64,000 bases of DNA from Owenia fusiformis. Its lineage: Eukaryota; Annelida; Polychaeta; Sabellida; Oweniidae. Shown here piece after piece: positions 58,501-63,380 of the stretch. The stretch covers positions 25,551,936 to 25,615,935 of the forward strand of contig CAIIXF020000006.1 of assembly GCA_903813345.2 (NCBI GenBank). The letters run 5' to 3'. Within the stretch, counting starts at the first letter, position 1. Each line of letters begins with the position of its first letter. Both the position numbers and the translations under genes were made by a program. The notes beneath the pieces are model-generated. The model had not been told where the DNA came from. It saw only the letters and a program-made list of their open reading frames with translations, and did not search any database.

Positions 58501-61500
58501 ATGGATGCTTCAAAAAACAAAATATAAGCTTCTGGTGTAATAAAGTGATGTTATAACTTGTTATTCTACAACAAGATAAATACATGCATAAGGAATATGA
58601 CTTTGTCACATTCAATGAGTAATATTCAAATGTTAGATGGTGAAAACTTACATGAAATGAAAGGAGTTGCAAAATACATGTATGTAATTATGAGGTGAAC
58701 TATGAAATATTACTTAATTACTAAGTATATCAACTAAAGTCATTAGGTGAGTACATGCTTTAACAATGAACTCTAGCTATTACATTCCAAACTATTCAAA
58801 TCAGATACTTATTTATTTACAATTTTTCAAGGAGGATACAGAAAAGATATTCTGCACAAGAAAGCTTGTATTTCACGAGACGCAGGCATATTTTCTGAAT
58901 TTTATAGATTTCTTTCATTTACCTGATCAGCATGAGCGTGACGTCCAATGATAATAGGTTTAGTCCATGTGGTAACTAATCGTGGAATGTTCTTACAGAT
59001 GATGGCCTCGCGGAAAACAGTGCCCCCTAGGATGTTCCTGATTGTACCGTTAGGTGAACGCCACATCTTTTTTAATTTGAATTCTATAAATGAGAAAACA
59101 TAAGAATTTATGATTTGCATTTAGCGCCTGGTCTCCTCTCCTCAAACATCATTCTACTAATCGCTAAGAGAGCTTAATTGAACTTTGAAGAAGGACGAAG
59201 GTTCCTAACTATGGCAATGTTTGATTGAAAATAAGGGGGAACAAATGTGACACTTGATGTAAAAATAAAATACCTCATATATTTGTCGGTGAGAGTTTAA
59301 AAACAGATAATCTTTTACAAACTTACATCCTGACTCCAACATCCAACACATTTAATATACAGGGTGGGCCAAAAAATTTTGCAACTTTTGTAAAAGGCTA
59401 TAAAAGTATCATAACATTAATATATTGCCATAAAAAGTTATCTACAGAAACTTAAAGCAGACATGAAATGGTATTTTTAACCTACAGGAATCAATATAAT
59501 TTTTTGATACATGTATTTGGACATGTTTTCTCATCAGTAGTGCGAAAACTATTTCACTCTAACCATCGTTATAGCTGCTTAATAAGCAATATTCGAATTG
59601 GTTGTGACGTTATTGGCCCCCACGTGATCTCTCACTGGTCCCCACGTGGCCCATAACGTCATAATGCCTAAATGTTTTGTTTTGGTTTACACTACAATCC
59701 TATGGTTGCCGTGACGTTGTGATTACTAAGGAACCAACACACTATATATATATTTTGTATATGACGTTACTTATCACGTGGGGGCCAATTTGATTGATCA
59801 GTTAGTTTTGTTTCGTTATTCATGACCGTTAGCAGTTATCTAACATTTATTTTATAATGACTATCGCAAGAACTCTACGTTGGGCTTACAATGGAGAAAA
59901 CCGCATTTTTGTAGCTGCAAGTTGAGAAAAGCTATTTCAGTTGTCCTTTAAGGATAGGCATATTTTACCAATCAAATACTAAAGCTTAAACCTGACTTCA
60001 CATTTTTTGTCAGATCTTCGAATATCAATGGTCAATTGTTCATGTGTCCGAGATTTACCATTTTCCTAGAAAATGTGACTTTCTATGAGTTTATGTGATC
60101 AACAATAACACATGCATTATGTTCATCTAATCTGCTACAATCTTGGAAAACTGTATAACCTATGTCTAGTACAGGTTTATATCACTATCTTGTCATTATG
60201 ATATAATGTTAGACCATATCTATTGATTATTTATTAAACAAAATTATGTCTTATGCATCTACATTTCAACTTCACTAGCGCAAGAATACAAAGGCGGAAC
60301 GGGTCAATGGCGCGATCCAACGATTCTTGTGGTAGTTCTCTCTACTTCTGCAGAACTTAGTGATCAAAAATTCGTGGGGGAATACCACTAACTGCAATAA
60401 GCTGCTCCAGGTGCCCCCATGTGTGATAGTCACAGGGGTAGGCATCTGGTGTATTTGGTGGCCATTCATCATGACTAATGAATCAAGGGGTGTTCTCCTC
60501 CAGACTTTTGCCCGATGGCTGGGAGCGAAAGTAAAGGTGAAAGGCGGATGCATAGAACATTTAATTGATATTTAATTAGTAGAGATACACTCAACATAAC
60601 ACCATAGTGACTAGATACTAATATAAACCTGTACTAGACATTTTTTAAACAGTTATCTAAGATTGTAGCAGATTTAATGAAGATAATAAATGTGTTATTG
60701 TTAATCACATAAAAAACGTAGAACGTTACATTTTCTAAGAAAAACGGTAAATTATGGACATATGAACAATTGACCATTGATATTCAAGGACCTGGCTAAA
60801 CAAATTGAAGTCAGGTTTAGCTTTAGTATTTAGATTTTAAAAATATGCCTATCCTAAAGTTTCTGTAGATAATTTTTTATGGCAATACCTTCATGTTATG
60901 ATACTTTTCTAGCATGTTAAAAAAGTTGCAAAATTTTTTGGCCCACCCTGTAGATTGACCATCAGGTCATTTTATAGGTTTCCATACAAGTTAAAAAGGC
61001 TGGGAAATGTATTAAATGTATATAAGAAAACATACCTTCAACTCTATTCTCATCTGGAGTTATGGTGGCACATTTGATACCAACGTTGTATTTCTTGATA
61101 GCGTTGGCACAATCAATGGTGACTGGAACAAGCAAGATTTGAATGATTAAATGATGTTCAAATGGCAAATGGTTGCATGAAATGAAAATTTAAGTGACAG
61201 TCAATGATTATGACAGTATTTCCAATCAAAGCATTTATCGTATATTGCTTACATACAACATCCCAAAGCCTTCCCAATCAAGCCATTTTTAAAAAAATGC
61301 AATATCAAATGTATGTATATACATATATATTTCTTTTATCGACAAAAGTGTCAAAGCATGACACATTAGTCTATGTACAAACTAAGAAACTTAAATGTAA
61401 ATACTCACTTTGATCATCTGTGGCATCTCTGCTCTCAACTGAGAGATCATAGAACTTAATGTCCAGATCCACATATGGAAATATCAACTTTTCCTTAATC

Positions 61501-61515: not shown

Positions 61516-63380
61516 CTGGAAATAATACAAATGCATGATTATGATAATCATAGATCATAGAACTTAATGTCCAGATCCACATATGGAAATATCAACTTTT
61601 CCTTAATCAGGTCCCAGATGATTCTGGAAATCATACAAATGCATGATTATGATAATCATAGATCATAGAACTTAATGTTCAGATCCACATATGGAAATAT
61701 CAACTTTTCCTTGATCAGGTCCCAGATGATTCTGGAAATCATACAAATGCATGATTATGATAATCATAGATCATAGAACTTAATGTCCAGATCCACATAT
61801 GGAAATATCAACTTTTCCTTAATCAGGTCCCAGATGATTCTGGAAATAATACAAATGCATAATTATGATAATCATAGATCATAGAACTTAATGTCCAGAT
61901 CCACATATGGAAATATCAACTTTTCCTTAATCAGGTCCCAGATGATTCTGGAAATAATACAAATTATGATAATCATAGATCATAGAACTTAATGTCCAGA
62001 TCCACATATGGAAATATCAACTTTTCCTTAATCAGGTCCCAGATGATTCTGGAAATCATACAAATGCATGATTATGATAATCATAGATCATAGAACTTAA
62101 TGTTCAGATCCACATATGGAAATATCAACTTTTCCTTGATCAGGTCCCAGATGATTCTGGAAATCATACAAATGCATGATTATGATAATCATAGATCATA
62201 GAACTTAATGTCCAGATCCACATATGGAAATATCAACTTTTCCTTAATCAGGTCCCAGATGATTCTGGAAATAATACAAATGCATGATTATGATAATCAT
62301 AGATCATAGAACTTAATGTCCAGATCCACATATGGAAACATCAACTTTTCCTTGATCAGGTCCCAGATGATTCTGGAAATAATACAAATGCATGATTATG
62401 ATAATCATAGATCATAGAACTTAATGTCCAGATCCACATATGGAAATATCAACTTTTCCTTGATCAGGTCCCAGATGATTCTGGAAATCATACAAATGCA
62501 TGATTATGATAATCATAGATCATAGAACTTAATGTCCAGATCCACATATGGAAATATCAACTTTTCCTTAATCAGGTCCCAGATGATTCTGGAAATAATA
62601 CAAATGCATGATTATGATAATCATAGATCATAGAACTTAATGTCCAGATCCACATATGGAAATATCAACTTTTCCTTAATCAGGTCCCAGATGATTCTGG
62701 AAATCATACAAATGCATGATTATGATAATCATAGATCATAGAACTTAATGTCCAGATCCACATATGGGAATATCAACTTTTCCTTGATCAGGTCCCAGAT
62801 GATTCTGGAAATAATACAAATGCATGATTATGATAATCATAGATCATAGAACTTAATGTCCAGATCCACATATGGAAATATCAACTTTTCCTTGATCAGG
62901 TCCCAGATGATTCTGGAAATCATACAAATGCATGATTATGATAATCATAGATCATAGAACTTAATGTCCAGATCCACATATGGAAATATCAACTTTTCCT
63001 TAATCAGGTCCCAGATGATTCTGGAAATAATACAAATGCATGATTATGATAATCATAGATCATAGAACTTAATGTCCAGATCCACATATGGAAATATCAA
63101 CTTTTCCTTGATCAGGTCCCAGATGATTCTGGAAATCATACAAATGCATGATTATGATAATCATAGATCATAGAACTTAATGTTCAGATCCACATATGGA
63201 AATATCAACTTTTCCTTGATCAGGTCCCAGATGATTCTGGAAATCATACAAATGCATGATTATGATAATCATAGATCATAGAACTTAATGTCCAGATCCA
63301 CATATGGAAATATCAACTTTTCCTTGATCAGGTCCCAGATGATTCTGGAAATCATACAAATGCATGATTATGATAATTAT
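61516..63380. repeat. Tandem array of IDH acceptor plus partial exon, 17 copies
   Basis: Period 107-108 bp, starting right upstream of the real exon 61515-61409. Each unit on the minus strand contains about 35 nt of intron ending in tttccag and the first 72 nt of that exon ([10 protein letters not shown] to KFYDL), then returns to intron so that the frame meets TGA. Units differ at very few positions (gatcag/aatcag, gtcc/gttc, aaatat/aaacat). One unit is shorter by about 8 bp near 61962. Each unit also contains the near-palindrome atgattatgataatcat. Confidence 0.95.

Follow-up and report, generated by a model that had tools for sequence, protein, structure and literature searches.

A young minisatellite spans the boundary between intron 1 and exon 2 of an isocitrate dehydrogenase (IDH) gene in the annelid Owenia fusiformis (Oweniidae), very probably as an unstable, near-neutral passenger of the kind known in amphioxus as a "mirage". 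We analyzed a window of 64,000 nucleotides of contig CAIIXF020000006.1 and give all coordinates as positions within it. Tandem Repeats Finder reported a period-108 array at 61444-63377 on the minus strand, with 18.0 copies, 97% matches and a score of 3658; the runner-up among its 51 rows for the window scored 862. Splitting the array at its splice acceptors yielded 18 head-to-tail units, all 108 nt long apart from a single unit of 101 nt. The last of these, unit 18, is the authentic exon 2 boundary and runs into the exon at 61409-61515, which leaves 17 extra copies upstream of it. Both the repeat finder and the unit split therefore bear out the first-pass annotation, which had described 17 additional copies of the exon 2 acceptor with the first 72 nt of the exon. 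Its description of the unit as acceptor plus 72 nt of exon stands for the exonic part and is refined here to include 33 nt of intron as well as a joint of 3 nt.

The host gene is an intact cytosolic-type (IDH1-type) NADP isocitrate dehydrogenase gene with an open frame on the minus strand. We located its exons with an IDH1 query and joined the protein matches at GT-AG boundaries. Nine coding exons (exons 2 to 10) lie in the window at 46501-61515, and all eight introns between them are GT-AG. Exons 2 to 6 occupy 61409-61515, 61036-61122, 58923-59083, 57852-57998 and 57256-57392, and exons 7 to 10 occupy 56754-56905, 48518-48658, 47905-48067 and 46501-46582, with the stop codon at 46501-46503. 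The spliced product is 100% identical over 391 aa to the annotated O. fusiformis isocitrate dehydrogenase [NADP] P0004 (410 aa), the best of 120 listed matches; only the 7997 candidates with the most words in common entered the scoring of that search. The repeated peptide is present once in P0004, and none of the 17 upstream copies contributes to the annotated protein. The 19 N-terminal residues of P0004 come from upstream of exon 2, with the final base of the 19th codon in exon 2. Pieces of the P0004 start were sought in all six frames of the window and were not found, so intron 1 must be longer than 2.4 kb. The label "second coding exon" given to exon 2 in the first-pass annotation holds on the strength of these 19 residues, with exon 1 lying outside the window.

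Each unit consists of the first 72 nt of exon 2, the 3-nt joint and about 33 nt from the end of the intron. In the real exon, which is 107 nt long and supported by the protein match and GT-AG boundaries, the 72 nt lie at 61444-61515; in unit 17, the nearest upstream copy, they lie at 61552-61623. The exon-intron boundary TTCCAG/AATC is intact in 18 of 18 units. On the 5' side of the transcript, comparison of the array edges places the array's limit at a 33-nt intron stretch (63345-63377) that precedes the first acceptor. The one short unit is unit 14, whose intronic part (61948-61976) measures 29 nt versus 36 and reflects a 7-nt deletion. Together with its surroundings, the joint forms a repeated CTATGAT, a pattern that looks templated. 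The unit joints also carry a perfect inverted repeat whose 8-nt arms are separated by one base (61535-61551, for example), 15 of which were reported in the array; such repeats could promote breakage or slippage. We rejected the array as coding sequence for a repeat protein, as its longest stop-free run in six frames is 43 codons.

The units have diverged little from one another. Comparison of all 153 unit pairs gave 15 identical pairs, a mean of 1.9 differences and a maximum of 4. In this count a gap run is one difference, and unit 1 carries an additional one, as it begins with intron flank in place of a joint. Variation is confined to 13 alignment columns, and the single deletion accounts for seven of these. 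These values support the proposal of the first-pass annotation that the array expanded recently or is being homogenised. Unit 18 is identical to units 4, 8 and 11, and the coding start of the real exon therefore belongs to the pool of exchanged units. Neighbouring units are not identical in any of their 17 pairs. At a separation of four units, 4 of 14 pairs are identical and the mean is 1.21 differences versus 1.90 in shuffled order (p 0.004, or about 0.04 after correction for the nine separations tested). The other eight separations were not significant, including a separation of seven, which leans the same way (mean 1.55, p 0.14). Two events in all separate units 11-14 from units 15-18. Copying in blocks of units is suggested by this pattern, which is weak after correction. 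The exonic variants comprise a GAC to AAC change (Asp to Asn) in 3 of the 17 copies and an ATA to ATG change (Ile to Met) in one; the only other changes in the exonic part are silent, namely a frequent ATT/ATC difference and a single TTT to TTC.

We compared the copies with the real exon as splicing substrates. Upstream acceptors and the real one differ at no more than one position of the tract, where seven of the 17 carry the same T and ten carry a G that removes a pyrimidine; in unit 14, the 7-nt deletion adds a difference further upstream. Judged by sequence, the copies' acceptors are almost as good as the real one, and some splicing leakage is expected. Donors were scored with an approximate matrix. 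On this approximate scale, the exon 2 donor (AAA/GTGAGT, 61401-61408) scores 4.32, the best internal GT of the units scores -3.41, and the exon 2 donor is the sole positive-scoring GT on the minus strand within 61400-63400. The same approximate matrix places the eight real IDH donors in the window between -2.74 (intron 8) and 6.25; the intron 8 value is close to that of the best internal GT, and the copies could thus conceivably yield cryptic exons. A reading frame that enters the array at an upstream acceptor and continues toward the real donor ends at a stop after 25 codons, for all 17 acceptors alike, and entry at the real exon 2 acceptor meets no stop. The length added by such entry is a multiple of three for the four nearest copies and not for the other 13, since copies 1-13 lose their register with the real exon through the deletion in unit 14. 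The copies accordingly have the properties first ascribed to them, namely a plausible 3' splice site (intact in all 18 units), an in-frame stop and, within the approximation of the matrix, no well-scoring donor.

Tandem duplicated or mutually exclusive exons each have their own acceptor, donor and open frame. We rejected this interpretation of the array because no copy has a well-scoring donor and all 17 reach a stop after 25 codons. We also considered RNA structure as a selector of the acceptor. The predicted fold of the real exon with the two copies nearest to it is more stable than 100 shuffles (z -3.04), and at all three sites the acceptor AG lies within the same hairpin, with an unpaired probability of 0.00-0.01. 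A hairpin common to all three sites examined cannot serve to choose among them, and this candidate was likewise rejected. The predicted fold may instead slow all 18 acceptors.

The annotated protein P0004 uses the last acceptor, and splicing that yields it would have to skip 17 equivalent upstream acceptors, as the first-pass annotation held. The published Owenia annotation was built using RNA-seq, and its reported support for 31,678 of 31,903 transcripts applies annotation-wide and is not specific to this gene (PMC9977687). Short RNA reads separate the copies from the real exon only when they extend past exon nucleotide 72. From the annotated protein and the amphioxus parallel described below, we infer that normal splicing ignores the array.

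Exon definition pairs a donor with the nearest good upstream acceptor. Under the model we favor, the first duplication would have arisen by break repair that joined the exon to nearby intron, with the 3-nt filler apparently templated. Subsequent block-wise exchange or slippage of units would have amplified and homogenised the array, with the 72-nt start of the real exon included. Exon definition would select the last acceptor by pairing the sole strong donor with the nearest acceptor upstream. That choice is favored because it creates a 107-nt exon with a strong donor, versus 215, 323 and more nucleotides from successive upstream copies. The array would then remain within a long intron at little cost, as a near-neutral passenger, and would be tolerated because the last copy is the one that the single strong donor marks as exon. 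If a copy were occasionally used, the mRNA would contain a stop and would probably be removed by nonsense-mediated decay.

The array resembles the amphioxus mirages in several respects. Its unit extends across an exon-intron boundary in a gene, the authentic boundary lies inside the array while the gene remains intact, and the splice signals in the copies (TTCCAG/AATC in 18 of 18) are potential cryptic sites. It also shows signs of concerted evolution: 15 of 153 pairs are identical, the real-exon unit equals three copies, and there is a modest block pattern. Its annelid host lies outside the reported cephalochordate range of mirages, which we take as a range rather than a defining property. 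The likeness that we claim is one of kind and not of common descent. Amphioxus mirages are reported for Adh, troponin C (as cited), globins and PGBD5, with splicing reported or inferred to be undisturbed (PMC3087553, PMC3902484). All mirages treated in PMC3087553 and PMC3902484 are from amphioxus.

The globin gene BflGb6 offers the closest points of comparison. Each of its units is described as containing the 3' end of an intron and the 5' part of exon 2, with splice signals common to the copies, as in the IDH array. Its units also evolve in concert, and RT-PCR suggests regular splicing (PMC3087553). The BflGb6 units are reported to be 150-160 bp long, to number 6 and 3 in two haplotypes and to be 81-100% identical (PMC3087553), whereas the IDH units are 108 bp long, number 18 and show 0-4 differences. 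Edge units of the BflGb6 array are reported to escape homogenisation (PMC3087553); in contrast, the real-exon edge unit of IDH equals three inner copies. The Adh3 mirage (Canestro et al. 2002, per PMC3087553 and PMC3902484) is likewise a minisatellite over an exon-intron boundary and is said to yield no aberrant mRNA. Its units are said to measure 10-72 bp, versus 108 bp in IDH, and length variation and somatic instability were shown for it (PMC3087553, PMC3902484). The lancelet PGBD5 gene is described with 60-bp (2 or 7 copies) and 108-bp (3 or 6 copies) repeats over splice sites, with copy number differing between two genome versions; unlike the IDH array, its copies are imperfect, and its splicing is mostly predicted (PMC3902484). 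We take the 108-bp unit length common to PGBD5 and IDH as coincidence. Ordinary intronic minisatellites (VNTRs) are like the IDH array in their turnover and recent origin. The IDH unit differs from them in containing coding sequence and an intact acceptor, and one end of its array is the real exon.

The array could alternatively act as a decoy-acceptor regulator, in which the copies capture the splicing machinery, the resulting stop-containing transcripts are degraded and the number of copies adjusts the output of IDH. All 17 copies do combine an intact acceptor with an early in-frame stop. However, intact acceptors are also expected of a young, near-identical array, and 13 variable columns are too few to show selection in either direction. 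Amphioxus mirages, moreover, are reported not to disturb splicing (PMC3087553, PMC3902484). We consider regulation by decoys improbable, and the parallels reported to splice normally leave the first-pass suggestion of a tunable device for IDH output without support. There is a slim chance that the array is a length-variable decoy tract in which the fraction of IDH transcripts that enter copies and decay rises with copy number. On that reading, the coding exon would be homogenised with its own decoys, and changes in the copies such as Asp-to-Asn and Ile-to-Met would therefore be movable into the enzyme.

We give very little weight to the idea that the assembler inflated the copy number or created the array. 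The published Owenia assembly is reported to derive from the sperm of one male and to combine PacBio reads, Canu, Arrow, Racon, an optical map, haplotig purging and Hi-C (PMC9977687). If the sequence analyzed here is from that assembly, as its species and chromosome-scale contig suggest, errors in repeats can arise from PacBio data assembled with Canu and polished with Arrow and Racon, and one amphioxus mirage was apparently misassembled in a genome draft (PMC3087553). Under the same assumption, however, the PacBio read N50 of 25.75-30.75 kb spans the 1.9-kb array (PMC9977687). The copies also differ by distinct substitutions and one 7-nt deletion, and re-examination of the Sanger data together with new Illumina data is reported to have upheld the original sequence of the lancelet PGBD5 repeats (PMC3902484). 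An artefact is unlikely, as the first-pass annotation also held, provided that the assembly is the published one, since its reads are far longer than the array and the copies vary. The exact number of units may reflect one haplotype or include consensus errors.

The least probable reading, an intermediate of intron gain in which a copy is becoming a new exon, follows a route proposed for mirages from amphioxus globins (PMC3087553) and is opposed by the lack of a well-scoring donor, by the in-frame stops after every copy and by the absence of an extra copy from the annotated protein.

The IDH gene contains a second duplicated acceptor. The last 144 nt of intron 8 and the first 26 nt of exon 9 (source 48042-48211) recur as a single copy in intron 9 at 46641-46810 on the minus strand, with 161 of 170 positions identical (94.7%). 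Reading from the acceptor of this copy toward exon 10 meets a stop after seven codons. Source and copy flank an inverted repeat with 379-nt arms at 47034-47412 and 47505-47883 that are 94% complementary, and this inverted repeat reads as a fold-back element. A self-comparison of the window (E 1e-6) that covered the boundaries of the nine IDH exons within it found extra acceptor copies at two of nine exon starts (exons 2 and 9), and only those of exon 2 are in tandem.

Other repeats occur in the window. Four copies of a 76-bp unit, 95% alike, lie at 45365-45666, on the downstream side of IDH and about 0.8 kb past its stop codon. Two related arrays with units of roughly 135-155 bp (9276-9907 and 42184-43129) stand about 33 kb apart, and a ten-copy 23-bp repeat (43130-43362) directly follows the second. 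A 547-aa reading frame with a Somatomedin B domain lies on the plus strand at 53594-55237; at E 0.001 it has only two relatives besides itself, both from Owenia and 73% and 33% identical. Rfam and tRNA scans of the window and a comparison with phage DNA returned no matches.

That an annelid carries a large, near-uniform mirage in a gene of central metabolism suggests that satellites at splice boundaries are not confined to cephalochordates. The second duplicated acceptor in the same gene adds to the suggestion that such satellites reach beyond that group. The array also provides a natural test of how the spliceosome chooses among 18 near-identical acceptors, for which exon definition predicts the last.
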